From positions 1 through 46,507 of the forward strand of contig JBBEBG010000026.1 in assembly GCA_040882465.1 (NCBI GenBank): a stretch of 46,507 bases of DNA. Reading direction: 5' to 3'. The notes under the pieces were generated by a model. It saw only the letters and a list, made by a program, of their open reading frames with translations, had not been told where the DNA came from and did not search any database. How positions within the stretch are numbered: the first letter of the stretch is position 1; each line of letters begins with the position of its first letter. Origin of the DNA: Gemmatimonadota bacterium (lineage in GTDB: Bacteria; Gemmatimonadota; Gemmatimonadetes; Longimicrobiales; Gaopeijiaceae). The position numbers and the translations under genes are program-made. Of the stretch, positions 9,789 through 23,983 are shown one piece after another.

Positions 9789-10258
9789 GAGGGTGCCTCC
9801 ACCGAGACTTTCTCTATGACGATCTGGGTGACCGGGCGGTCTCCCCGGTCCGTCTTTGTGGCTCCGATCTCCCGGATGACCTCCATTCCCCCTACGACGC
9901 TCCCGAAGACGGCGTGTTTTCCGTCGAGCCACCCGGTGGCCGCGAGGGTGATGAAAAACTGCGATCCGCCCGTGTTCGGCCCCGCGTTGGCCATCGAAAG
10001 GACGCCCGCTCCGCCGTGACGGAGCTCAGGGTGAATTTCGTCCTTGATTTTGTACCCCGGCCCCCCCCTTCCCGTCCCTTCCGGGCATCCGCCCTGAATC
10101 ATGAACCCTTCGATGACCCGGTGGAAGATGGTTCCGTCGTAAAACCCCTTCTCCACAAGAGAGAGGAAGTTCGTAGTCGTCCCCGGCGCCTGAGCTTCGA
10201 AGAGCTCCACGCGAAAGTCGCCCTGGGTCGTCTGGAAATGGACCACGCGGTTCGCCAT
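9785..10258 (-). CDS. Cyclophilin-type peptidyl-prolyl cis-trans isomerase
   Basis: A 157-residue single-domain cyclophilin. [40 protein letters not shown] and [10 protein letters not shown] are the classic active-site segments, including the catalytic Arg of FHRV. It catalyses proline isomerisation during protein folding. Starting at ATG 10258 ([10 protein letters not shown]) gives a cytoplasmic protein of normal length with no signal peptide. A longer in-frame extension upstream is unconserved. It is the first gene of the four-gene operon and is divergent from phoB. Confidence 0.93.
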
Positions 10259-10347
10259 GGGTATCCGATGTCGTGAGGAGAAGAGGCGGCCCGACGGCCG
10301 GGGTCGGAGTTTTACCGCGAGCGGCCCTCTCGGTTCCAGAACGAGGA

Positions 10348-10354
10348 CGTTACG
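10348..10354 (+). promoter_or_regulatory. Candidate Pho-box half site upstream of phoB
   Basis: CGTTACG lies about 47 bases upstream of the phoB start. The same heptamer recurs upstream of the porin, pstS and the TonB receptor. Only a weak partner (CAGAACG) lies one 11-bp turn upstream. A TATATT hexamer at about 10388-10393 could act as a -10 box. Confidence 0.35.
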
Positions 10355-10400
10355 AGCCGATCCTCGCACCGCACTTCGAAGAAGGGATATATTCGGCGCC

Positions 10401-11093
10401 ATGAGCGACCACATCCTCGTCGTGGACGATGAGCCGGACATCTCCGCCCTCGTGGCGTATCACCTGGCGCGGGAGTCTTACCGGGTTCGTACGGTGTCGG
10501 ACGGACAGGAGGCACTGGAGGCGGTGGAGCGGGAACGCCCCGACCTCATCGTGCTGGATCTCATGCTCCCGGGAATGCCGGGGCTCGATGTCCTGCGCGA
10601 GCTGCGTCGCCGCCCCGAGCTTGAAAACATTCCGGTCATTCTCCTCACTGCCCGGCGAGAGGAAGACGATCGAGTCGAGGGGCTCCGGCTGGGAGCGGAT
10701 GACTACCTCTCGAAGCCCTTTTCTCCCCAGGAGCTCGTTCTCCGGGTCGGTGCGGTGCTCCGGCGGGTCCGCCAGCATCCGCCCGGGAGCCCCGGCGGCC
10801 AGCTCCTCCGGGGCGGTCCGGTCACCATAGATACCGGGGCGGCGCAGGTCGAAGTGAATGGCAAGCCTCTCGTTCTCACGCCGACCGAATACAGGCTCCT
10901 GCTCGTCCTCGTGGAGCGTCGCGGAAGAGTTCAGTCGCGGAGGCAGCTCCTCGAAGCCGTGTGGGAGACGACGGCGCGGATCACCACGCGAACCGTGGAC
11001 ATGCATGTGCAGCGCCTTCGGGCCAAGCTCGGCGAGGCGTCCGACTGGCTGGAGACGGTCCGGGGCTTCGGGTATCGCTTCAGGTCGGAATAG
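10401..11093 (+). CDS. phoB: Phosphate regulon response regulator PhoB (OmpR/PhoB family)
   Basis: A 230-residue two-domain regulator. The receiver domain has the acidic pair at residues 9-10, phospho-acceptor Asp53 (VLDLMLPGMPG), Thr83 and Lys105 (SKPFSP). The C-terminal winged helix (about 130-228) ends with RTVDMHVQRLRAKLGE and VRGFGYRF, the DNA-recognition region of PhoB. It is expected to activate phosphate-starvation genes when phosphorylated by PhoR. The start ATG 10401 is preceded by a weak GGGATAT context. The stop lies 3 bases before phoR. Assignment as PhoB rests on the adjacent phoR-pst genes. Confidence 0.9.
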   Translation: MSDHILVVDDEPDISALVAYHLARESYRVRTVSDGQEALEAVERERPDLIVLDLMLPGMPGLDVLRELRRRPELENIPVILLTARREEDDRVEGLRLGADDYLSKPFSPQELVLRVGAVLRRVRQHPPGSPGGQLLRGGPVTIDTGAAQVEVNGKPLVLTPTEYRLLLVLVERRGRVQSRRQLLEAVWETTARITTRTVDMHVQRLRAKLGEASDWLETVRGFGYRFRSE

Positions 11094-11096
11094 CCC

Positions 11097-12869
11097 ATGC
11101 GGCTTCGGGCCCACCACAAGCTCTTCCTCAGTTACGCGCTACTGGTCGCGGGAGTCGTTGTCGCCCTGATCCTCGGCGTGGACGCGGCCCTTCGCGAGCC
11201 CCTCCTCGAACAGGCGGGCGACGAGCTCGAACGCGAGCTGGCCCTCGGCCGCGAGCTGTACGCACAAAATGCCGGAGCCGAACCGGACTCCCTGGCCCGG
11301 TACCTCGGACGGGTCACCGGTCACCGCGTCTCGATCATCGCACCGAACGGTGCCCTCGTCGCCGACTCCCGGCTGGATGCCGGTGAGTTGGCCGAAGCCG
11401 AGAGCCATCTGGACCGCCCGGAGGTCATCGCCGCCTTCGCCGAAGCCACGGGGCGGGCCGTTCGTCTTAGCACAACGACGGACGCCGAGATCCTCTACGC
11501 CGCGACCCTCACCTCCGACGGCATTGTCCTGCGATTCGGGGTCGGGATCGACGAGATCGAGACCGCCGTGGCGCGGGCCCGCCGTCAGATCATCCAGGCC
11601 GGGATCCTCGCCCTCCTCGTCGCCGCAGCCTTTTCCTTTGCGTTCAGCATCTGGTTTACGCGCCCCCTTCGCCGGCTTCGCGACATCGCCGCGTCCATGG
11701 GGGGCGAGGCCATCGGTGCGCGACTCCGTGGGTCGCGCGAAGACGAGTTGGGAGAGCTTGGTTCGGCGCTCCAGGGCCTCGCGGAAGAGCTCCAGCAGAG
11801 GCTCGCCCAGCTCGAGGGCGAACGGGAGGAGATGAACGCCCTCATCGATTCGATGGCGGAGGGTGTGCTGGCCATCGGCCCGGACGGAGCCCTCCGGCGC
11901 GCCAATCCAGCCGCCCGGGTGATGTTCGACCTCGGACGCGAGGTCGGCGGGATCCCGCCCGAGGCGATCGCTCGCCGCAAACCTTTTCTCGAGCTCGTGA
12001 GCCGGGTCCTCGACGGCACCTCGGTTCCTCCCACCGAGCTCACCCACGACGAAAAATACCTTGTGGCCACGGCCCAGCCGCTCCCACGCGGAGGAGCGGT
12101 CCTCGTCTTCCTCGATACCTCGGAGCTCCGCCGTCTGGAGGGGGTCCGGCGCGACTTCGTGGCGAACGCCTCTCACGAGCTGAAAACACCCCTCACCGTG
12201 ATCCGAGGGCACGCGGAGACCCTCCTCGACGAGGACCTCCCACCGGCGCTTCGAGCCCAGTTCGGGGACAGTCTCCGCGCGAACGTGGACCGGCTCCAAT
12301 CCATTCTCGACGATCTTCTCGACCTGTCCAGGATCGAGTCGGGAGGTTGGAAATTGACGCCGGAATCCCTCGACCTGAGGGAGACCATCGAGGAAAGCTG
12401 GCGGTCCTTCGCCTCGGCTGCCTCAGAGCGCCGCGTCGCGTTCGGGATGACCCTCGGTGCGGGTGCGGAGGAAGTCGAGGCCGACCCCGAAGCCCTCCAT
12501 CAAATTTTCACGAATCTCTTCAGCAACGCGCTGCGGTACACGCCGGCGGGGGGTCGGATCGATGTCGTGGCCACTCCCATGCACGAAGGCGGCGTGCAGA
12601 TCGAGGTCCGGGACACGGGAAGCGGGATTCCCGCTCCGCACCTGAGCCGGATCTTCGAACGGTTCTATCGTGTGGATCCGGCCCGCTCGCGGTCCGAAGG
12701 GGGAACCGGCCTCGGCCTTTCGATCGTCCGGCACCTGATCGAGCGGCATGGGGGGCGCGTCGAAGCCGAGAGCGAAGTCGGGCGCGGCACGACGATCCGA
12801 TTCTCCCTCCCACCCGAGCAGTCACCTATCGCATCCCCGCAGGATCCCGCCTCGACCCCCACTTTGTAA
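11097..12869 (+). CDS. phoR: Phosphate regulon sensor histidine kinase PhoR
   Basis: A 590-residue membrane kinase. Transmembrane helices lie at about residues 13-31 and 163-187, enclosing a periplasmic domain of about 130 residues. HAMP (about 188-240), a coiled stretch and a PAS domain (about 250-340) follow. The HisKA box FVANASHELKTP contains phospho-His360, and the HATPase domain shows NLFSNALRYTP (about 472-482), DTGSGIP and GGTGLGLSIV. It phosphorylates PhoB. The extracytoplasmic domain is larger than in E. coli PhoR and resembles Gram-positive and actinobacterial-style PhoR kinases with a real sensing loop. How it couples to PstSCAB/PhoU is not visible. Confidence 0.9.
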   Translation: MRLRAHHKLFLSYALLVAGVVVALILGVDAALREPLLEQAGDELERELALGRELYAQNAGAEPDSLARYLGRVTGHRVSIIAPNGALVADSRLDAGELAEAESHLDRPEVIAAFAEATGRAVRLSTTTDAEILYAATLTSDGIVLRFGVGIDEIETAVARARRQIIQAGILALLVAAAFSFAFSIWFTRPLRRLRDIAASMGGEAIGARLRGSREDELGELGSALQGLAEELQQRLAQLEGEREEMNALIDSMAEGVLAIGPDGALRRANPAARVMFDLGREVGGIPPEAIARRKPFLELVSRVLDGTSVPPTELTHDEKYLVATAQPLPRGGAVLVFLDTSELRRLEGVRRDFVANASHELKTPLTVIRGHAETLLDEDLPPALRAQFGDSLRANVDRLQSILDDLLDLSRIESGGWKLTPESLDLRETIEESWRSFASAASERRVAFGMTLGAGAEEVEADPEALHQIFTNLFSNALRYTPAGGRIDVVATPMHEGGVQIEVRDTGSGIPAPHLSRIFERFYRVDPARSRSEGGTGLGLSIVRHLIERHGGRVEAESEVGRGTTIRFSLPPEQSPIASPQDPASTPTL

Positions 12870-12893: not shown

Positions 12894-13017
12894 CTTCGGC
12901 GACCACCCGTCACTAAGGTGAAACATCGCCGGAGGACAGTCCCCCGAAGGACCGCGGATCCCGGCGGTCGGGGAAAGGCCGGGACCCCACCCAGAGTCTC
13001 TACATGGCGAGGTGACG

Positions 13018-14061
13018 ATGACGCGTGCGTTGCGAGGGTCGGGAGTGGGTTTAGCCTGTGCCCTATCCGTTCTGGGGGCGGCCACCCCGGCGGAGGCGCT
13101 GCAGGAACCGGAAGATCCCCCTTTTACGATGTCGCCCGGCGCGCGTGTTCAGGTCCGTTACACGGGGACCGAACCCGAAGGGCCGGAAGACGGGACGAAC
13201 ACTTTCCGCGTTCAGCGGGCCCGGCTCTCCCTCTCGGGGGAAGCATACGAGCGATTCAGCTACGGAATCCAGGCCGATCTCTCCGGTTCGGGCGGGACCC
13301 TCCTCGACGCGTACATCCGCTTGGCTGCGACCGACGCACTCACCGTCTGGTTCGGCCAGGGAAAGGCCTATTTCGGGCGCCAGTGGTTGAATTCCTCTGC
13401 CAATCTCCAGTTCGTGGACCGCACGATCGTACACAGTCGCTTTAATGCGGACCGCCAGCAGGGCGTCGCTCTCCTCGGGCGGGCCGCCGAGAACCGAGTC
13501 GAGGTGAACCTGGGTCTTTACAACGGTGAAGGAATCGGACGGTCCGTAAACTCGGACAACCGCTTCATGACCGTGGGACGAATCGTGTTCACGCCGTGGG
13601 GTTCTTACTCACCCGTGGAGAGCGCGCACGACTACCCCGAGGACCCACGCCTCGCCATTGGCGTCGCCGGGCTGCGAAACACCACCGGCGGGGAGGAGGA
13701 AGAAGAGGTCCAGATCACCCGGTTCAATACGGAGATCGCCTTCAAGCTGCGAGGTTTCAGCGCCACGGCCGAAGTCTTCGGGGAGTGGGTGGATCCCGTG
13801 GGAGGGGTGGAGGAGACCGCGAGCGGGTGGTACGTCCAGGGCGGGATCCTCTTCCCGGGCCTCCACCACGAGGTGGCGGCGCGCGTGGCGGGAGTCCAAC
13901 CCGACGCCCCGAACGCCGACCGGACCGAGCTCGGGCTCGCTTACAGCTATTACATCCGCGCCCACAACGCCAAGATCCAGGCCGACATCCGGAACATCCA
14001 CGAAGACGGGACCGATTTGGACACTCGTGAGCTCCGCGTTCAGTTTCAGCTCGCCCTGTAA
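13018..14061 (+). CDS. Phosphate-selective porin O/P family outer-membrane porin
   Basis: A 347-residue outer-membrane beta-barrel with a signal peptide cut near TPAEALQ. The segments GARVQVRYTGTEPEG, FRVQRARLSLSGEAYERFSYGIQADL and LTVWFGQGKAYFGRQWLNSS match the OprO/OprP-type pattern of an N-terminal strand followed by an inward loop. The chain ends in a strand with a C-terminal leucine rather than the usual Phe. It should admit phosphate or other anions. GTG 13012 is also in frame, but ATG 13018 has GCGAGG at better spacing. It sits between phoR and pstS with a Pho-box-like pair upstream, so phosphate control is likely. Confidence 0.8.
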   Translation: MTRALRGSGVGLACALSVLGAATPAEALQEPEDPPFTMSPGARVQVRYTGTEPEGPEDGTNTFRVQRARLSLSGEAYERFSYGIQADLSGSGGTLLDAYIRLAATDALTVWFGQGKAYFGRQWLNSSANLQFVDRTIVHSRFNADRQQGVALLGRAAENRVEVNLGLYNGEGIGRSVNSDNRFMTVGRIVFTPWGSYSPVESAHDYPEDPRLAIGVAGLRNTTGGEEEEEVQITRFNTEIAFKLRGFSATAEVFGEWVDPVGGVEETASGWYVQGGILFPGLHHEVAARVAGVQPDAPNADRTELGLAYSYYIRAHNAKIQADIRNIHEDGTDLDTRELRVQFQLAL

Positions 14062-14183: not shown

Positions 14184-15281
14184 ATGAACCGAGCGAACGG
14201 ACGTATCATGCGGTCCCTGTTAGGCGTGGTTTTCCTCTTGGGAGTCGCGGGGTGTGGAGGCGGGAGCGGCACGGAGGGACGAGCGCCGACGCTCACGGGC
14301 GCGGGTGCCACCTTCCCGATGCCCCTCATCACCCTCTGGAGCAGCGAATACGAGACGGCCACGGGCGGCCGGGTGAACTACAATTCGATCGGCTCCGGCG
14401 GCGGGATCCGCGCGCACACCGACAAGACGGTGGACTTCGGTGCCTCCGAGGCACCGCTCACGGCGGAGCAGTTCGCGACGGCGGCCGGCACGTTGACGCT
14501 CCCCTTCACGATCGGGACCGTGACCGTCGCCTACAACCTTCCCGGAAACCCTGAGCTCCGGCTCACCCCGGACGTTCTGGCTGACATCTATCTCGGCCGA
14601 GTCACGCGGTGGAACGACCCGCGGCTCCTCGAGGTCAACCCGGGCGCCACTCTCCCCGACGAAGCCATCGTGGTCGTGCACCGATCCGACGGCTCCGGGA
14701 CGACCTACGTCTTCACGGATTACCTGAGCAAGGTGAGCCCCGCCTGGAGCGAATCGGTGGGATTCGCGACCTCGGTCGCCTGGCCTCTCGGAATTGGAGG
14801 AAATGGGAACGAGGGTGTGGCGGGCGCGATCCAGAACAACCCTCACTCGCTCGGCTACATCGAGCTCTCCTACGCGAGCAGCCTCGGCCTCCCGACCGCC
14901 GCGATCCGCAATCAGGCGGGGAACTTCATCAAGCCCTCGCTCGAAGCCGGAACCGCCGCCGCGGCCTCGGCGGTAAACATCCTTCCCGCCGGCCATGAGG
15001 CCTGGAGCGAGGTGTCTTTCACGGATGCGGTGGGGCCCGATTCCTATCCGATTTCCTCCTTTTCATACTTCCTGGTCTACGAGGACCTCGGGGTCATGGG
15101 AAACCAGATGACTCCGGCGCGAGCCGAGGCGATCGTCCGCTGGCTGGAGTGGGCGGTGACCGAGGGACAGGCGTACAATAATGACGTGAACAACGCCACT
15201 CTCCCCGAAAACGTACGGGCGCTCAATCTCGAGACGCTCGACCGGATCCACCTGAATGGCGAACGCGTGAGAAGCTGGTGA
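14184..15281 (+). CDS. pstS: Phosphate ABC transporter substrate-binding lipoprotein PstS
   Basis: A 365-residue phosphate-binding protein with lipobox GVAGC (MRSLLGVVFLLGVAGCGGG), so it is membrane-anchored. The phosphate-binding segments are GAGATFPMPL (N-lobe), SIGSGGGI, DFGASEAPL and VVHRSDGSGTTYVF. The C-lobe contains WPLGIGGNGNEGVAG and NPHSLGYIELSYA. It captures orthophosphate for PstCAB. ATG 14184 has a GGGAGAGGG ribosome site. A downstream ATG at 14208 (MRSLL) is also possible and gives a tidier signal peptide. Its stop overlaps the pstC start. Confidence 0.95.
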   Translation: MNRANGRIMRSLLGVVFLLGVAGCGGGSGTEGRAPTLTGAGATFPMPLITLWSSEYETATGGRVNYNSIGSGGGIRAHTDKTVDFGASEAPLTAEQFATAAGTLTLPFTIGTVTVAYNLPGNPELRLTPDVLADIYLGRVTRWNDPRLLEVNPGATLPDEAIVVVHRSDGSGTTYVFTDYLSKVSPAWSESVGFATSVAWPLGIGGNGNEGVAGAIQNNPHSLGYIELSYASSLGLPTAAIRNQAGNFIKPSLEAGTAAAASAVNILPAGHEAWSEVSFTDAVGPDSYPISSFSYFLVYEDLGVMGNQMTPARAEAIVRWLEWAVTEGQAYNNDVNNATLPENVRALNLETLDRIHLNGERVRSW

Positions 15282-16204
15282 CGGAAGCGGGAGGCGGAGG
15301 GTTCCGCAGGCATTGGTTCCGTTATGTGACGGGTGCCCTCGCGGCGCTCGTCGTTCTCGTGACGATCCTCATCGTTTTCCGACTCGTGCTGGATTCGCGT
15401 CCCACCTGGAGCGAGTGGGGACTTGCCTTCGTCACGCGAACGGAGTGGGATCCGGTCCGGGGGGACTTCGGAGCGCTTCCCTTCATCGTGGGCACGCTTC
15501 TCACGAGCCTGATGGCGCTGGTCATTGCACTCCCGATCAGCCTCGGCATCGCGATCCTCCTGTCCGAATACGCGCCGCGGCAGCTCCGCGACCCGCTGAT
15601 CTTCGTGGTCGAGCTCCTCGCGGCGGTCCCGTCCGTCGTTTTCGGCCTCTGGGGGATCTTCGTCCTAGCCCCCCTCGTCCAGCAGCATGTCGTGCCCCTC
15701 ATCGCCTCGAGCCCACTCGGCTTCTTCCCCTTCTTCGGGGAACCCGGCCCGGGCTACAACCTGTTCACCGCCAGCCTGATCCTCGCGATCATGATCATCC
15801 CGATCATCGCCTCCCTCAGCCGCGAGGTCCTGATGGCCGTCCCCCGCGAGCAAAAGGAGGGCGCTCTCGCCCTCGGCGCGACCCGGTGGGAAGCGGTGCG
15901 CCACGTGGTCCTCGCCTATGGGCGACCGGGGATCTTCAGCGCCGCCGTGCTCGGGCTCGGGCGTGCGCTGGGCGAGACGATGGCCACGACGATGACGATC
16001 GGGAACAGTCTCGGATTGACCTTCGACTACTTCCAGCCCGGGAACTCGATGACGGCCATCATCGCGAACGAGCTCCGCGAAGCCGCATCGCGCCTGCACG
16101 TGAGCTCGCTCGTCGCGATCGGCCTCATCCTCTTCGCCGTCTCGTTCCTCTTGAACACGATGGGACGGTTGATCCTCATGCGGGTTCAGGCGAGAGGCGT
16201 ATGA
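15278..16204 (+). CDS. pstC: Phosphate ABC transporter permease PstC
   Basis: A 308-residue permease with six transmembrane helices (about residues 12-34, 70-97, 112-136, 160-183, 225-250 and 272-298). The EAA-type coupling loop contains REQKEGALALGATRWEAVRHVVL, and AVPSVVFGLWG and ALGETMATTMTIGNS are typical PstC segments. It pairs with PstA to form the phosphate channel. GTG 15278 overlaps the pstS stop (GTGA), and its own stop overlaps pstA, so translation is coupled along the operon. Confidence 0.95.
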   Translation: MTEAGGGGFRRHWFRYVTGALAALVVLVTILIVFRLVLDSRPTWSEWGLAFVTRTEWDPVRGDFGALPFIVGTLLTSLMALVIALPISLGIAILLSEYAPRQLRDPLIFVVELLAAVPSVVFGLWGIFVLAPLVQQHVVPLIASSPLGFFPFFGEPGPGYNLFTASLILAIMIIPIIASLSREVLMAVPREQKEGALALGATRWEAVRHVVLAYGRPGIFSAAVLGLGRALGETMATTMTIGNSLGLTFDYFQPGNSMTAIIANELREAASRLHVSSLVAIGLILFAVSFLLNTMGRLILMRVQARGV

Positions 16205-17088
16205 GCTCGCACCCCATTGCCGCGGCCGAGTCCATGCCGACGCGCCTGCGGCTCCGACTCCTTCGGGACCACATCCTCGTCGCCCTCTGTATCGCGGCCC
16301 TCCTCTGCGCCGTGGTCCCTCTCGTGTGGGTCCTCTGGGAAGTCATCGCTGTCGGCGCCGCGCATATCTCGTTCGAATTCCTGACGGCCCTTCCCGCTCC
16401 CCCGACGGTCGGAGGCGGGGGCTGGGGCAACGCGATTGTGGGATCGGTCGTCGTCGTGGGGATGGCCATGCTGATTGGCGTCCCCGTGGGAGTCGGGACC
16501 GGGATTTACATGAGCGAGTTCGGAAACAACGCCCTCGGAAGAAGTGCGCGTTTCCTTTCCGAAGTGATGGCGGGGATTCCCTCAATCATCGCCGGCATTG
16601 TCGCATACGGTCTCATCGTGGTGACCATGGGACGGTTCAGCGCCATGTCGGGCGGTGTCGCGCTCGCGGTCCTCTTTATCCCGGTGGTCGCGATCACGAC
16701 GCAGGAAGCGCTCCGGCTCGTCCCGGTGGACCAGCGCGAAGCCTCCTTCGCCCTCGGGGTCGCCGACGCCCCGACGACGCTTCGCGTCGTTCTCCCGGCC
16801 GCGATGGGAAATGTCCTGACCGGGATCATGCTCGCGACCGCGCGGATCGCCGGCGAAACGGCCCCCCTCCTCTTTACGGCATTCAACAGCCGCTACTGGA
16901 TGGAAGGGCTCGACCAGCCGACGGCCACGATGCCGGTGAACATCTATTCGTATGCGATCAGCCCGTTCGAGCACTGGCACGAGCAGGCCTGGGCCGGCGC
17001 CCTCGTTCTTGTGGCGATGGTGTTGCTCACGAACGTGGTGGCCCGGACATTGTGGGCGCGCCGTGCCCGCTTCATTGCCGGCCGCTGA
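16201..17088 (+). CDS. pstA: Phosphate ABC transporter permease PstA
   Basis: A 295-residue permease. Six transmembrane segments are seen after a short cytoplasmic N-terminus. [36 protein letters not shown] (EAA coupling loop) and [17 protein letters not shown] are the PstA hallmarks. The late loop [14 protein letters not shown] is also typical. ATG 16201 overlaps the pstC stop (ATGA). With PstC it forms the membrane channel energised by PstB. Confidence 0.95.
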
Positions 17089-17116
17089 TCCGCCGGAAAA
17101 AAGGGAGAATCGAGCC

Positions 17117-17875
17117 GTGGCCGAGGCCATCACCACACGTTCGCTGAGCGTCTCCTTCGGGGGACGCCCGGCAGTGAACAACGTGGATATGAGCATCGCG
17201 GCGAGAAACGTCACCGCCATCATCGGTCCGAGCGGATGTGGGAAGACGACCTTCCTGCGCTCGATCAACCGGATGCATGACTACGCCCCCACTGCCCGCG
17301 TCACGGGGAGCGTTTTTCTCGGAGACCAGGACATCTACGCGAACGGGATGGATCCGGTGCAACTCCGGACCAAGGTCGGGATGGTCTTCCAGCGGCCGAA
17401 TCCATTCCCCACGATGAGCATCCGAGACAACATTCTCTTCGCACCGAAGCGGCACGGAATCGTGAAGGGCCCCGAGATGGACGCGATGGTCGAGCGAGTC
17501 CTTCGGCATGCGGCTCTTTGGGACGAGGTGAAGGACCGCCTCCACCACAGCGCGACGAGCCTCTCCGGGGGGCAACAGCAGCGCCTCTGCATCGCTCGGG
17601 CGCTCGCAGTTCGTCCCCAGGTGCTCCTCATGGACGAGCCGGCGAGCGCCCTCGATCCGACCGCGACGCAGAAAATCGAAGACCTGATCTACGAGCTGAA
17701 GCAGGACTACACGATCGTGATCGTGACGCATAACATGCAGCAGGCGGCGCGTGTCTCCGACTTCACGGCCTTTTTCTACCTCGGCGAGCTCGTGGAATTC
17801 GGGGAGACGAATTCCCTCTTTACGAATCCACGCGAGGAGCGGACCGAAGCCTACATCACGGGGAGATTTGGATGA
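17117..17875 (+). CDS. pstB: Phosphate ABC transporter ATPase PstB
   Basis: A 252-residue ATPase. Walker [10 protein letters not shown] is at residues 37-45, the Q-loop [13 protein letters not shown] follows (the NPFP segment is diagnostic of PstB), the signature LSGGQQQR is at 149-156, Walker B LLMDEP is at 170-175, and the switch His lies in VTHNMQQA. The start GTG 17117 has GGGAG nine bases upstream. Its length matches the family. Its stop overlaps phoU (ATGA). Confidence 0.96.
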
Positions 17876-18603
17876 GCCCTACCAGCGGCGCCCGCCACCT
17901 TTCCGACGACCTCGAGACCCTCAAGGCCCGGCTCCTGGAGATGTCGGTCATGGTCGAGGACCTCCTTCGCATCGCGGTGGAGTCCCTCGCCGAACGCGAC
18001 GAGGTCAAGGCGCGCAGCGTGGAAGAGGGAGACCGGTCGGTGGACGCGATCGAGCTCGAGCTCGACGAGGCCTCGATCAATATGCTCGCGCTCCATCAGC
18101 CTGTGGCTCGGGACCTTCGCCTGATCACGATGGCGATGCGGATCTCGAGCGACCTCGAGCGGATCGGGGATCACGCGGTCAATGTCGCTCAGGCGGTGAA
18201 ACATGTCGGGAAATATCCAACCCTTGGGCGATTTCCCGAGCTCGGCGAAATGGCGCGCCTGACGCGCCAGATGCTGACGGACGCCCTGGACGCCTTCACG
18301 CGGGGAGACGCGGCCCTCGCCAGAGACGTGCGCCGCCGTGACGACCGGGTGGATGCGCTTCAGGATTCGCTGATCCGGATCCTCCTCACGCACATGATGG
18401 AAGATCCCCGCCGAATCGGTTCCGCGATCTCGCTCCTCCTGGTGAGTCGCAACCTCGAACGGGTGGCCGATCTCGCGACGAACATCTCCGAGGACGTCGT
18501 CTTCATGGTGGAGGGGCGCTTCATTAAACACGGGGGACCGGCCGCCGCCGGAAAAGACGCGGCAGATCAGAGCCCACCCGTGGCGGAAGGTCCGGTAAGC
18601 TGA
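17872..18603 (+). CDS. phoU: Phosphate signalling complex protein PhoU
   Basis: A 243-residue protein with two three-helix PhoU repeats. The metal-binding motifs are [23 protein letters not shown] with [15 protein letters not shown] in the first repeat and [17 protein letters not shown] in the second. PhoU links the Pst transporter to PhoR and prevents Pho activation when phosphate is ample. Its ATG overlaps the pstB stop. A basic and polar C-terminal tail after residue 220 is unconserved. It is the last gene of the operon, tail-to-tail with a second PhoB-like regulator. Confidence 0.95.
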
Positions 18604-18652: not shown

Positions 18653-19426
18653 TCAGTCGGGAAGCGCGGCCCCGGGCACCCTCAGGCGGTAACCGAACCC
18701 CCGGACGGTTTCGACGCAGTTCCCCATCTCGCCCAGCTTGGCCCGGAGTCGGTGGATGTGCATGTCCACCGTTCTCGTCTGAAGGCGTTCCGCCACGGTC
18801 GAATTCACATCCCAAACCCGCTCGAGGAGCCGACGCCGACTCTGCGTTCGTCCGCGTCCCTCCATCAGGGTGCGGAGGAGACGAAACTCGGTCGGAGTGA
18901 GGTCGAGCCCCTCGCCGTGTATCGTGACGCCGTGGGCCACGTCGTCGAGGACCAGCGGTCCTATCCCCAGGAGCCGCCCGCCCGACTCGCCCCCCCCCAG
19001 CTCCGACCTCCGCAGAATGGAACGCACCCGGAGCACCAGCTCGCGGGGGGAGAATGGCTTCGTGAGGTAGTCGTCGGCACCGAGCTCGAGCCCCTGGATC
19101 CGGTCTTCCTCTCCGCGTTTGGCGGTGAGGATGAGGACGGGGAGGAGGCGGGTGTTCAACTCGGTCCGGAGCGTGCGTAGGATCTCGTCCCCTGACATCC
19201 CAGGGAGCATGCGGTCGAGCACGACCAGGTCGGGAACTTCCCGGCCGATCGCCGCGAGCGCCTCCGCACCGGTCAGCGCCGTCTCTACGCGGAAACCCTC
19301 CCGGGTGAGCTGATAGGCGACGAGCGCGGCGATGTCGGGCTCGTCTTCCACGACGAGCACTCGCGCGGAGGAATGAACCCCGGAGCTTCTCGCTTCGGTC
19401 ACTGCCCTGGCGGTCACGTCGAACAT
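18653..19426 (-). CDS. Second PhoB-like response regulator (orphan)
   Basis: A 257-residue OmpR/PhoB-type regulator. The receiver has acidic residues near 28-31 (VVEDEPDIAAL), phospho-Asp71 (VVLDRMLPGMSG) and Lys123 (TKPFSP). The winged-helix domain ends with TRTVDMHIHRLRAKLGE and VRGFGYRL, close to the PhoB at 10401. No histidine kinase is adjacent, so it may share PhoR or be controlled otherwise. The N-terminal extension of about 20 residues is unusual. AGGAG abuts ATG 19426, so an in-frame GTG at 19417, with better spacing, may be the true start. It is divergent from the TonB receptor and convergent with phoU. Confidence 0.85.
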   Translation of the reverse strand: MFDVTARAVTEARSSGVHSSARVLVVEDEPDIAALVAYQLTREGFRVETALTGAEALAAIGREVPDLVVLDRMLPGMSGDEILRTLRTELNTRLLPVLILTAKRGEEDRIQGLELGADDYLTKPFSPRELVLRVRSILRRSELGGGESGGRLLGIGPLVLDDVAHGVTIHGEGLDLTPTEFRLLRTLMEGRGRTQSRRRLLERVWDVNSTVAERLQTRTVDMHIHRLRAKLGEMGNCVETVRGFGYRLRVPGAALPD

Positions 19427-19530: not shown

Positions 19531-19570
19531 CGTAACGGTGGCGGAAAGTCCAGGTCACAAGCTCGTAACT
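19531..19570 (-). promoter_or_regulatory. Candidate Pho box facing the second phoB-like gene
   Basis: Heptamers CGTAACG (19531), CGGAAAG (19542), GGTCACA (19553) and CGTAACT (19564) are in an 11-bp register. The outer two are reverse complements of the CGTTACn heptamer seen at the other sites. They lie about 105-145 bases upstream of the regulator start on the minus strand. Confidence 0.4.
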
Positions 19571-19734: not shown

Positions 19735-22482
19735 ATGAAGCTTTTCACGCGATTAGCCTCGATCACTTTCGCCCTGGCGCTGACGGTGACTCACGCCGCG
19801 GCAGTCCAAGCGCAACAAGAAGGCCCCGCTCGTGGCCGGATCATGGGACAGGTCAAGAGCCAAGAGACCGGCGCCTCGTTGTCCGGCGCGCAAATCCAGA
19901 TCGAGGGCTCACCGAGAGGGACGCTCTCGGGGATTGAAGGGCGGTATCAGATGGACGACCTCCCGGTCGGCCCCCTCTCTCTCCGGGTCACCTATCTCGG
20001 ATACGCCGCCAAGGTGATTTCCGGGGTCGAGATCGTGGCGGGCCAGACCGCTCGGCTCGACGTGACGCTCGAGCGGCAGGCGGTTGAGATGGCTGCGATC
20101 ACCGTGACGGCCCAGCAGGAGCGGGGGAGCTCGGTGACCCTGATCGGGGCGCAGCGGAGCGCCATCTCGCTGGTGAGCGCGATCTCCGCGGAGCAGATCG
20201 GCCGGTCCCCGGATGGGGACGCGGCCGCGGCGATGCAGCGGGTCAGCGGCGTGACGGTGCAGGACGGGAAGTTCGTGCAGGTTCGCGGAATGGGTCAGCG
20301 GTATACCACCAGCTCGCTCAACGGATTGCGAATTCCGAGTCCGGATCCCGAGCGGAAGACGGTCCCTCTCGATCTCTTCCCCTCCGGCCTGATTCAATCC
20401 ATCTCCACGAGCAAGACCTTCACGCCCGATCAGCCGGGCGACTTCTCGGGTGGATCCGTGGACATTCGGACACCCGACTTCCCCACGCGCCGCACGTATT
20501 CCCTCTCGATCGGAAGCGGATATCACCCGGACGTGGTGGGAAACACCCTCCTCGTGGCGCCGTCGGCCGGAACCGAATGGCTGGCGTCGGGCGCGAACGC
20601 GAGATCCCTCCCGGCCGCCGCGCGCAATTTCTCGGGCACGGAAACGAGGGGGCCCGAAGTCAACTCCATCGTCAACTCCTTCCGGAACGCATGGAGCGTC
20701 AGGGAAAAATCCGGACGGCTTCCGGCATCTCTTTCGGCTTCGATCGGCGGCTCGGGGGACTTCATGGGCCGGACGATCGGCTACCTGGGCTCGGCGAGTT
20801 ACTCGAACAGCCAGGAAGTGAAGCTCGAGCAACGCCGTGCTCGCTGGGCCGCAGGCGACTCGGAGGTGGACCGATACGACGGCGAAGCAAGCGCAGGCAC
20901 GGTGTCCATGGGCGCTCTCCTCAATCTCAGCCTCCTCTTCGGTTCCCACTCGCAGGTCCACCTGAACAACACGATGAGTCGGAGCGCCGACGACCAGGCG
21001 CGGCGCGAGATCGGTTTCGATGAGAACTCCGCCTCGACCGTTCAGGTCGAGCGGCTCTCCTACGTCGAGCGGACGGTGCGATCCCACCAGCTCCAGGGAG
21101 AGCACCAACTCGGGCTCCGACATCGCCTGGACTGGTTGGTCTCGAACTCCGCGGTGTCCAGGTCGGAGCCGGATCGCTCGGAATTCGTGACCTGGCTCGA
21201 CCCTGAACAGCCGATCTGGCTCAAGAACTTCGAGGGCGCGGTGCGCACCTTCGGTTCCCTCGACGAATCGGCCTTGGAGGGATCGGCGCGTTACGCGTTC
21301 ACGTTCGGAGGCAATCCGGGGCAGCCGAACCGAATCAACATAGGCGTCGGACACCGCCGGGTCGGGAGGGACGCGGAGAGCATCGGCTTTCGGATCCAGC
21401 CCTTCTTCTGGTCGCCGAGCGATGAGCGGTGGCAGATGGCGCCGGAAGAGATCTTCGACGGCCGCTTCGCTCAGGAAGGAGACTCGATTTTCATCCTCGC
21501 TCCGGAACAGGCGGGAGGGTCCTACGACGCGGACGATCGGCTCTATTCCGGCTTCCTGATGGGTGAGGTGAACGTCACGGAGCGACTCCGTCTGATCGGT
21601 GGAGTGCGCGTCGAGAATTACGAGCTGGACTTGAACGCCGTAAACGCGGTGGGAGTTTCCAGTGACGTCACGAGGAGCTACACGGACTTCCTGCCCGCCC
21701 TCTCCGCTCTCATCCAGCTCCCGGGTGAACAGCAAGTTCGGCTGTCGGCATCGCAAACGCTCGCTCGCCCCGAGTATCGCGAGCTCGCGCCGATCAACTA
21801 CCGGGAGGTGTTAGGTGGAGAACAGGTTCGCGGCGACGCGAATCTCGAGCGAACCCTCATCCGCAACCTGGACCTGCGGTGGGAGTGGTACCCGCGCGTC
21901 GGCGAGGTCATCTCGGTGGGTATCTTCGGGAAGTGGTTCGAGAACCCGATCGAGGAGCGATACATCGGGGGATCGGGCACGAGTACGCGAACCTTCGCGA
22001 ACGCCGAAAGCGCGGCGAACTTCGGGGTGGAGTTGGACGTCAATCGGAGCCTCGACTGGATTCATCCGGCTCTCGAGCCGCTCTCCGTGTTCGGCAACCT
22101 GACCCTGATGAAGAGTGAGGTGGACACGGGCCAGGAGGGCGAAGAGGCACGCGCCCTCGTCGGGCAGGCACCCTACGTGGTGAACTCGGGGCTCACCTAC
22201 TTCAATGCCCTTCGAGGCCTCAGCGCCACGGTCCTTTTCAACGTCGTGGGCGACCGAGTCCTGAACGCCCGTGCGGTAGGGGCAACCTACGAGGACGTGG
22301 TCGAGCGTCCTCGCCCTCTCGTGGACCTCTCGTTTCGGTTTCCGGTGATCGGAGCCGCCTCGGGAAAGCTGGACCTCAAGAACATCCTCGACTCCCCGTA
22401 TGAGGTCCTCCAGGGACCCATCGTACGAGACTATCACCGGAGTGGGCGCAGCGTCTCCTTCGGACTCTCGTGGCAGTGGTAA
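19735..22482 (+). CDS. TonB-dependent outer-membrane receptor with N-terminal regulatory-like domain
   Basis: A 915-residue receptor. A signal peptide (about 1-26) is followed by a CarboxypepD_reg-like beta-sandwich (about 36-115; GRIMGQVKSQETGASLSGA to LRVTYLGYAAK). A TonB-box-like AAITVTAQ precedes the plug (QRVSGVTVQDGKFVQVRGMGQRYT, about 165-260) and a 22-strand-type barrel ending in VSFGLSWQW, an aromatic C-terminus required for BAM assembly. It should import a scarce large substrate using TonB energy. No SusD partner follows; instead a beta-helix lipoprotein gene begins 49 bases downstream. ATG 19735 has GGGAG at good spacing. Position next to pst-phoU and a PhoB-like gene suggests a phosphorus-containing ligand (inference). 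Confidence 0.88.
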   Translation: MKLFTRLASITFALALTVTHAAAVQAQQEGPARGRIMGQVKSQETGASLSGAQIQIEGSPRGTLSGIEGRYQMDDLPVGPLSLRVTYLGYAAKVISGVEIVAGQTARLDVTLERQAVEMAAITVTAQQERGSSVTLIGAQRSAISLVSAISAEQIGRSPDGDAAAAMQRVSGVTVQDGKFVQVRGMGQRYTTSSLNGLRIPSPDPERKTVPLDLFPSGLIQSISTSKTFTPDQPGDFSGGSVDIRTPDFPTRRTYSLSIGSGYHPDVVGNTLLVAPSAGTEWLASGANARSLPAAARNFSGTETRGPEVNSIVNSFRNAWSVREKSGRLPASLSASIGGSGDFMGRTIGYLGSASYSNSQEVKLEQRRARWAAGDSEVDRYDGEASAGTVSMGALLNLSLLFGSHSQVHLNNTMSRSADDQARREIGFDENSASTVQVERLSYVERTVRSHQLQGEHQLGLRHRLDWLVSNSAVSRSEPDRSEFVTWLDPEQPIWLKNFEGAVRTFGSLDESALEGSARYAFTFGGNPGQPNRINIGVGHRRVGRDAESIGFRIQPFFWSPSDERWQMAPEEIFDGRFAQEGDSIFILAPEQAGGSYDADDRLYSGFLMGEVNVTERLRLIGGVRVENYELDLNAVNAVGVSSDVTRSYTDFLPALSALIQLPGEQQVRLSASQTLARPEYRELAPINYREVLGGEQVRGDANLERTLIRNLDLRWEWYPRVGEVISVGIFGKWFENPIEERYIGGSGTSTRTFANAESAANFGVELDVNRSLDWIHPALEPLSVFGNLTLMKSEVDTGQEGEEARALVGQAPYVVNSGLTYFNALRGLSATVLFNVVGDRVLNARAVGATYEDVVERPRPLVDLSFRFPVIGAASGKLDLKNILDSPYEVLQGPIVRDYHRSGRSVSFGLSWQW

Positions 22483-22531: not shown

Positions 22532-23983
22532 ATGAGAACCAGCGCAGGCAAGCTCGTCGGACTCTTGGCCCTCGTCACGCTTCTCGTGGCGTGCGACAGT
22601 AGCCACCCGGTGGACCCGGGACCGCCTTCTAATTGTGACCCGGGCGTCCTCTGCGAGAACGTCACCCAAAACCGCACCCTTCACGCCGACACCGTCTATA
22701 CGATCTCCGGATTCATCCAGGTCACGAACGGCGCCCAGCTGACGATCCAGGTCGGCACACGAATCGAGGGCGACTTCGATATACCCGGGTCTTCTCTATT
22801 CATCACGCGCGGATCACGGATCGTGGCCAACGGTACGGCCATGAACCCGATCGTCTTCACCTCGTCGCGCCCGGTTGGACAGCGGCGTCCGGGCGACTGG
22901 GGCGGTCTCATCCTCGTCGGGAATGGGATCATCAATCGGGGCAGCCCCTCCATCATCGAAGGCACCGGGACGAGCGAGGCGAATCCGGAACAGAATTATG
23001 CCGGGGGTACGGATAACAATGACAATTCCGGCACCCTCCGGTACGTCCGGGTCGAGTTCGCCGGTTTCCCGGCGGCCGAAAACCAGGAGCTGAACGCGCT
23101 CACGATGGCGGCGGTGGGAAGCGGCACGACGATCGAATTCGTGCAGGTTCTCCTCGGGCTGGACGACTCGTTCGAGTGGTTCGGAGGCGCCGTGAACGCA
23201 CGCAACCTCATCTCATACGAAGCCGGCGACGACCACTTCGACGCGTCCGAGGGCTACGCCGGGAACGTGCAGTACATGATCGCTTTCCAGTCCTTCCAGC
23301 CGGAACCGCGTGCGGGGATCGCCGGCGGGGTCGCGAGCGACCCGCAGGGATTTGAGAACGACGGGTGCGCGGCCGGGACCTGCAATGGTGGGAACAACAA
23401 CGAAAACGCTCAGCCCTTCACCGTGCCGGTATTTGCGAACTTCACCCTGATCGGTGCCCCGCTGGGAGCGTGGGAATCGAGCTCCGGAAATATCGGAATG
23501 ATGCTCCGCCGGGGAGTGGGCGGGCTCTACGTGAACGGTGTGGTGGCCCGTTACAGCCGCGCGGGAATCTCAATCCGGGGCGACAACACGAATCAGCGGC
23601 GGGTGGACAACCTCCTCGCCGTTCGAAACGTCTACCTGACGGAAGTGACCAGCACCTTCCAGGGCGGCCCAGCCCCCGGGTCGGGCACGGGCGCGCAGCA
23701 CTCCCTGGATCTGGGCGCCAACGCCATCGAAGCCGGGGTCGCGGCTTCACTGGGCCTTTTCATGGCCGTGCCCGCGAACACGGTGGGCGCCACGGCGGCG
23801 AACTTCGACTGGCGGCCGGCGGCTGGCTCTCCGATCGCGACGGGCGGGTTGAACAGCTTCGCCGGCCTTTCGGCGGCCCTCCAGGCAGCAGCCGCGGGCG
23901 TAGTGCCGACGACGTATCGCGGCGCCGCGGCACCCGGTGGTGACCAGTGGTGGGCCGGCTGGACCCATTACGCCCGCAACTGA
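22532..23983 (+). CDS. Beta-helix-type surface lipoprotein paired with the TonB receptor
   Basis: A 483-residue lipoprotein with lipobox TLLVAC (residues 16-21). The mature chain has repeated short strands typical of right-handed beta-helix folds: VTNGAQLTIQVGTRIEGD, SRIVANGTAMNPIVFTSS, GDWGGLILVGNG, LRYVRVEFAGF, GTTIEFVQV, DDSFEWFGGAVNARNL and GDDHFDASEGYAGNVQ. It ends with WWAGWTHYARN. Proteins with these GDWGGL / DDSFEWFGG / GDDHFD blocks are known beside TonB receptors in Bacteroidota and proteobacteria but lack a proven function. Acidic clusters could bind metal and a phosphorylated ligand. ATG 22532 (AGGA upstream) is chosen because the lipobox follows directly; the longer open frame upstream overlaps the receptor. 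Confidence 0.75.
   Translation: MRTSAGKLVGLLALVTLLVACDSSHPVDPGPPSNCDPGVLCENVTQNRTLHADTVYTISGFIQVTNGAQLTIQVGTRIEGDFDIPGSSLFITRGSRIVANGTAMNPIVFTSSRPVGQRRPGDWGGLILVGNGIINRGSPSIIEGTGTSEANPEQNYAGGTDNNDNSGTLRYVRVEFAGFPAAENQELNALTMAAVGSGTTIEFVQVLLGLDDSFEWFGGAVNARNLISYEAGDDHFDASEGYAGNVQYMIAFQSFQPEPRAGIAGGVASDPQGFENDGCAAGTCNGGNNNENAQPFTVPVFANFTLIGAPLGAWESSSGNIGMMLRRGVGGLYVNGVVARYSRAGISIRGDNTNQRRVDNLLAVRNVYLTEVTSTFQGGPAPGSGTGAQHSLDLGANAIEAGVAASLGLFMAVPANTVGATAANFDWRPAAGSPIATGGLNSFAGLSAALQAAAAGVVPTTYRGAAAPGGDQWWAGWTHYARN

Follow-up and report, generated by a model that had tools for sequence, protein, structure and literature searches.

The phosphate-starvation island and its receptor–lipoprotein pair

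The stretch of DNA analyzed here (hereafter the window; 46,507 nucleotides of the Gemmatimonadota contig JBBEBG010000026.1, assembly GCA_040882465.1) carries a complete phosphate-starvation island. Both its closest named relatives and the lipoprotein tree place the genome in Gemmatimonadota. Genes for a PhoB-like regulator, a PhoR-like kinase, a porin O/P family protein, PstS, PstC, PstA, PstB, PhoU, a second regulator, a TonB-dependent receptor, the lipoprotein under study and a third gene follow one another in that order (Table 1). The PstB domain begins near residue 60, and the true start of pstB may thus lie downstream of the one given. No cognate kinase was identified beside the second OmpR-type regulator of the island, which is divergent from the receptor. 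The lipoprotein gene, present as one copy in its own genome, is a complete open reading frame (ORF) encoding 483 aa from the ATG at 22532; an alternative upstream ATG at 22400, from the mechanical ORF call, overlaps the receptor gene.

Table 1. Coordinates of genes, sequence motifs and ladder residues in the window.
Feature	Position	Strand	Basis
PhoB-like response regulator	10257..11093	+	Pfam
PhoR-like histidine kinase	11097..12869	+	Pfam
Phosphate-selective porin O/P family	13012..14061	+	PF07396, 57.3 bits
PstS-type phosphate-binding protein	14184..15281	+	PF12849
PstC	15278..16204	+	TIGR02138, 313.9 bits
PstA-like permease	16204..17088	+	Putative start; frame of ORF 15313-17088, BPD_transp_1 at residues 393-579
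PstB	16952..17875	+	TIGR00972, 382.7 bits
PhoU	17872..18603	+	TIGR02135, 208.5 bits
OmpR-type response regulator, divergent from receptor	18653..19426	-	Pfam
Pho-box-like direct repeats, 11-bp register (GTAAC 19532, GTCAC 19554, GTAAC 19565)	19532..19569	+	Motif and spacing analysis
TonB-dependent receptor, 915 aa (CarboxypepD_reg, Plug, TonB barrel)	19735..22482	+	Pfam
Predicted beta-helix lipoprotein of ElpS/FI-FIII type	22532..23983	+	ORF, translation, model pLDDT 90.5
Predicted signal peptide and lipobox LVAC, predicted lipidated Cys21	22532..22594	+	Sequence, Cys21 conservation
Ladder rung a: E186, N188	23087..23095	+	Strand register, 123-domain alignment
Ladder rung b: D211 D212 S F E215 (start of DDSFEWFGG)	23162..23176	+	Register, alignment
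Ladder rung c: D233 D234 H F D237 (GDDHFDASEGY)	23228..23242	+	Register, alignment
Ladder rung d: E275 N D277	23354..23362	+	Register, alignment
Ladder rung e: R326 (conserved, all groups), R327	23507..23512	+	Alignments
Third gene, small predicted lipoprotein, 217 aa	24095..24748	+	Conserved in Gemmatimonadota loci

Receptor and lipoprotein form a near-obligate pair. Strong lipoprotein matches were found at 60 places in 53 of 150 Gemmatimonadota genomes, and 54 of these places were immediately preceded, in the same orientation, by a relative of the window receptor. All 53 genomes contained a receptor relative, and five further genomes had the receptor alone; this count leaves out three weak lipoprotein and 12 weak receptor rows (E 2e-36 to 4e-31). 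The named loci are the best 80 of 586 relatives confirmed in genome contigs, and in these the receptor adjoins the lipoprotein in 16 of 17 Gemmatimonadota loci, with too little upstream DNA in the remaining one, and in 56 of 63 Bacteroidota or other loci, where three of the seven exceptions had too short upstream DNA and four had no adjacent match. Moreover, the receptors of the Chryseobacterium (L023) and Sphingomonas (L113) loci found the window receptor as their sole match in the window genome, despite 17 Plug matches there. The functional link to the adjacent receptor that had been supposed in an initial annotation of the sequence is supported.

Proximity to phosphate genes is also frequent: PhoU lies within 20 kb of the lipoprotein in 19 of the 53 genomes versus about 0.4 by chance (a PhoU place was typed in 37 of the 53). 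Among the long loci within the best 80 of 586, Pst or PhoU genes were present in all nine from Gemmatimonadota and in 7/52 from Bacteroidota or other groups, every locus so counted having PhoU, PstC or PstS. An OmpR-type regulator occurred in 22 of these 52, based on a query that matches any OmpR-type regulator. The third gene was found in 15/17 named Gemmatimonadota loci and, among the loci examined (best 80 of 586), in Gemmatimonadota only. It had no Pfam family above cut-off, and its model (pLDDT 83.2) gave weak Foldseek matches to NTF2-like names only, the best at E 0.14 and none at E ≤0.001.

Pho boxes are direct repeats in an 11-bp register, and Pho-box-like repeats in this register precede the window receptor. 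The GTMAC motif was picked after viewing the window, and the spacing of identical 5-mers was counted as a version free of a chosen motif, in the 220 bp upstream of receptor genes at loci L019-L081, at viral loci of the ~400-aa class (see below) and in Gemmatimonadota. A spacing of 11 ranked first among distances 6–39 in all three groups, with 119 pairs against a mean of 32.9 in Bacteroidota or other (n = 48), 59 against 16.6 in viruses (n = 27) and 35 against 8.9 in Gemmatimonadota (n = 16). In this last group the pattern is less sharp, with scores of 35, 30 and 26 at distances 11, 12 and 23. The excess at distance 11 was absent from the receptor coding region. The repeated words TAACA and TAATA are common to viruses and Bacteroidota (e.g., L144 and L052), and those of Gemmatimonadota are mixed; the E. 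coli-type box CTGTCAT-N4-CTGTCAT, with up to three mismatches, occurred 0 times in the window. The Pho island and the repeats are indirect hints that the window gene may be induced by phosphate starvation.

Lipobox, beta-helix fold and acidic ladder

The predicted signal peptide ends in the lipobox L18-V19-A20-C21. C21 is without variation in 52 aligned full-length relatives, and lipidation at this residue is predicted. The +2 residue behind it is Asp. In E. coli, Asp at +2 specifies inner-membrane retention, a rule that fails in some phyla; if it held here, the protein would be retained in the inner membrane, which would count against the outer-membrane model developed below.

An AlphaFold2 model built on an alignment of 52 sequences (mean pLDDT 90.5, pTM 0.90) is a right-handed parallel beta-helix with ~24 short strands, in which strand assignment gives repeated coils of one long and one short strand each. 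In Foldseek the model hit tailspikes, Pel9A and polygalacturonases; the E-values were weak, the best being 3.8e-4. VIA-align gave a best Z of 22.5, with Z ≥8 for 394 of 507 chains; the 50 entries listed ranged from Z 22.5 to 18.3 at 6–14% identity, and tailspikes, NosD, alginate epimerases, Pel9A and GH28 enzymes were among the matches. Model and structural matches agree, and the right-handed beta-helix fold is hence secure, yet the fold does not pick out a function. PDB sequence searches with the protein and with the family profile returned no match, and Pfam and NCBIfam searches over 52 members found no enzyme family matching the beta-helix core. Pfam gave a weak Purple acid phosphatase N-terminal match in one member (E 0.0093), as well as Ig-like or fn3 domains in a few. 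Relatives at loci L040, L042, L111, L112 and L115 carry two or three beta-helix domains in tandem, and those at L040 and L042 have no lipobox at the called start.

Known beta-helix enzymes were considered as candidates. Pel9A (PL9) and GH28 enzymes share the right-handed fold and have acids at the start of equivalent strands, but the window protein lacks a sequence-level match to them. Its fold is similar to that of Pel9A in VIA-align (Z 21.4, rmsd 3.7, 313 aligned residues, 14% identity), and it has no Pfam match to this family. PL9 pectate lyases have a Ca2+ site with a catalytic Lys; a search via PF22842 was uninformative, with short N-terminal matches only, in 11/150 genomes. The GH28 motif set is NTD/DD/GHG/RIK, and a GH28 polygalacturonase was rejected, with no Pfam match in 52 members and with GHG and RIK missing from the window protein.

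Conservation is concentrated in an acidic ladder. Across 123 aligned beta-helix domains from 115 proteins (47 Gemmatimonadota, 66 Bacteroidota or other, 10 proteobacterial), nine acids (E186; D211, D212, E215; D233, D234, D237; E275, D277) are identical in every aligned cell, and the same nine are identical in 61/61 distinct viral rows. In the 123-domain alignment, R326 is kept in 119/120 aligned cells and N188 in 120/121, and N135, D164, Q247, N303 and N335 are also widely kept. The first family alignment had 13 invariant acids, nine of which lie on the five short strands of the ladder. The charged positions R118, D122, R173, E175 and R327 are also (near-)invariant in that alignment, but most of five proteobacterial proteins inspected have lost them (four of the five in the case of R327). 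Since each of five consecutive coils contributes ladder residues from its short strand, the strand register suggests that they would form one ladder along a single face of the beta-helix. The initial annotation had described a lipoprotein with repeated strand units and conserved Asp/Glu-rich motifs (D211-DSFEWFGG-219 and G232-DDHFDASEGY-242) on one face, and had proposed an AlphaFold-type model with a structural search. This description agrees with the invariant Cys21, with the placement of the model among right-handed beta-helices, with the constancy of the acids across three bacterial groups and with the strand register.

Published and phage-borne relatives

Relatives matching the family profile occupy published gene orders, and the window protein hence appears to be the gemmatimonadal member of the ElpS/FI-FIII family of phosphate-starvation lipoproteins, an assignment based on relatives that share those gene orders and not on the CC0170 and Fjoh_0546 sequences themselves. 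According to Le Blastier et al. (2010), ElpS (CC0170) is a Caulobacter crescentus lipoprotein that is specifically produced under phosphate starvation, surface-exposed and released, and its gene lies beside a TonB receptor gene and type II secretion (T2SS) genes in the order CC0170-CC0171-gsp (PMC2996285). This order recurs in Sphingomonas (L113, family profile E 6e-66) and Indioceanicola (L111, E 2e-178), where the relative comes first, then a TonB receptor, then T2SS genes. A 2024 Caulobacter study assigns the T2SS, along with several TonB receptors, to the PhoB regulon (PMC11208175). The window protein would thus resemble ElpS as a phosphate-starvation lipoprotein whose gene adjoins that of a TonB-dependent receptor; however, in the window the receptor precedes the lipoprotein, and Pst/PhoBR genes, with no T2SS genes found, stand beside it.

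In Flavobacterium johnsoniae, Lidbury et al. (2020) report strong Pi induction of FI, FII (Fjoh_0546) and FIII, which share 31–36% identity with the Caulobacter lipoprotein; members of the family rank among the most abundant Pi-starvation exoproteins (FI being 18.7% of the exoprotein). The gene for FII is directly behind that of a TonB-dependent transporter, and their phoBR operon includes an OprP-type porin as well (PMC8115612). The Chryseobacterium locus L023 has a histidine kinase and response regulator divergent from receptor and lipoprotein, like Fjoh_0543-0546, and an Alteromonas relative sits after phoB-phoR-pstS. Like FII, the window gene directly follows a receptor gene with phoBR and porin genes nearby, but its island adds pstSCAB-phoU and the third gemmatimonadal lipoprotein gene. 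SusCD/PusCD-type pairs, some of them Pi-induced (PMC8115612), follow the same principle of a surface lipoprotein with a TonB-dependent transporter. In contrast to these, the window lipoprotein is modeled as a beta-helix and not as the helical fold of SusD, and a SusD-like identity was rejected, with no SusD family match in 52 members. The initial annotation had also held that the family has no known function, which stands in part: it has been published as phosphate-starvation lipoproteins (PMC2996285, PMC8115612), yet its core matched nothing in Pfam, NCBIfam or PDB sequence.

The phage-borne receptor pair is the surprising part of the findings. An uncultured phage record of 634,780 bp (LR745206.1) encodes a relative and then a receptor, surrounded by NUDIX, NAMPT, Clp and RNA-ligase genes; a search for this lipoprotein's own viral relatives gave eight pattern matches, none confirmed. 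A scan of IMG/VR with the family alignment confirmed 203 viral-contig stretches encoding relatives. In the best 80 of these 203 (L136-L215) plus L116 (L116:7779-11619), an adjacent receptor was present at 52 of 81 loci, i.e., 42/49 in the ~400-aa class (five more without room) and 10/32 in the ~520-aa class (five without room). An alignment of 110 flank proteins from eight viral loci (L169, L149, L176, L141, L199, L210, L137, L205) included thymidylate synthase, endolysins, DNA polymerase, ribonucleotide reductase, dUTPase, tail fibre and a Thoeris inhibitor, as well as eight Plug domains. Terminase was detected in 16 of 40 whole records at E < 1e-36 (18 at E ≤0.001), a TonB plug in 31 and PhoH in 13. 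The receptor was adjacent in 14 of the 16 terminase-bearing records (33–221 kb); for the other 24 the terminase test does not establish a viral origin, and no record has a completeness rating of ≥90%. In two records (G164 and G167, behind L168 and L176), the terminase match spans several stop codons (4 TGA, 2 TAA), as with an intron or insert.

Within the large viral clade, median dN/dS was 0.164 over 40 usable of 120 pairs (80 saturated). The tree placed a 16-row virus-only clade among Bacteroidota (SH-aLRT 100), and the viral label needs five changes, at least two of them forced by well supported branches. A tree that held the viral rows together was 46.8 log units worse with a p-AU of 0.068, and single capture by phages is therefore not rejected. 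A second tree omitted eight long-branch rows and the remaining proteobacterial rows and kept only four Gemmatimonadota. The copy on a contig labelled Candidatus Planktophila (L043, Actinomycetota) branches within Bacteroidota, and a binning error is probable.

Pho boxes have this same 11-bp register, and host PhoB may therefore control the phage copies. The chances appear evenly balanced that Bacteroidota phages carry the full pair of receptor and ElpS-family lipoprotein behind Pho-box-like repeats so as to raise the phosphorus import of a starved host under host PhoB; the alternative from the same data is a receptor-level exclusion of rival phages. A literature search, in the portions of text accessible, found no work on a phage-borne receptor–lipoprotein pair.

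Proposed function and alternatives

It is probable that the protein is a phosphate-starvation surface lipoprotein that captures a phosphorus-containing ligand with its acidic/arginine face and then passes this ligand on to the receptor. In such a mechanism, an outer-membrane lipoprotein would be produced with the TonB-dependent receptor within the phosphate-starvation response; the nine ladder acids, capped by R326, would most likely bind the ligand, probably via bound divalent cations, and the receptor, once presented with the ligand, would import it into the periplasm by TonB-driven transport, from where PstSCAB would carry phosphate onward. We favor capture and delivery because this reading joins the near-obligate receptor pairing, the Pho context and the reported lack of phosphatase activity of ElpS itself, as assayed with pNPP (PMC2996285). 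A capture protein, one of the options in the initial annotation, is also the one that fits best; its other suggestion, a phosphodiesterase-like enzyme, is not supported, and neither is a phosphatase: no Pfam or NCBIfam enzyme family covers the core in 52 members, and ElpS showed no phosphatase activity of its own. Some of the Caulobacter results, as given in the same source, would by analogy argue against capture: expression of the receptor gene was constitutive, ElpS was still produced when that gene was deleted, no shift in intracellular phosphate was detected, and deletion of elpS did not alter phosphatase activity (PMC2996285).

The ladder could instead be a catalytic centre, that of a Ca2+-dependent lyase or hydrolase cutting a polyanionic, phosphorus-bearing or masking polymer before uptake. 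The fold is shared with polysaccharide lyases, epimerases and polygalacturonases (including Pel9A), strictly invariant acids with an arginine are the pattern that an active site would leave, and Lidbury et al. modeled FI-FIII as polygalacturonase-like (PMC8115612). Nonetheless, identity to solved beta-helices is low with no single enzyme family prominent, the searches for an enzyme family of the core were negative, and the pNPP result for ElpS also weighs against it. We lean towards capture over catalysis and regard a catalytic ladder as possible but rather unlikely.

A third explanation, that the protein is an accessory activator, stimulating or displaying phosphatases that are secreted while not itself binding the nutrient, draws on the finding that over-expression of ElpS, which has no such activity of its own, raised alkaline phosphatase activity in supernatants, but the unchanged activity after elpS deletion speaks against it (PMC2996285). 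The tight pairing, moreover, is with a receptor, and such a role is improbable. It is similarly doubtful that the acids merely hold Ca2+ that stiffens the helix while the ligand binds elsewhere, since metal ions do stabilize some beta-helices but nine of the 13 invariant acids lie on five short strands and a purely structural metal ladder has no need of the conserved Arg at its end.

The invariant ladder supplies ten residues for mutation and links the protein to a single receptor lineage, and the question of what the protein does thereby becomes testable. If the phage-borne pair works, receptor-level phosphorus uptake would join the phage repertoire.
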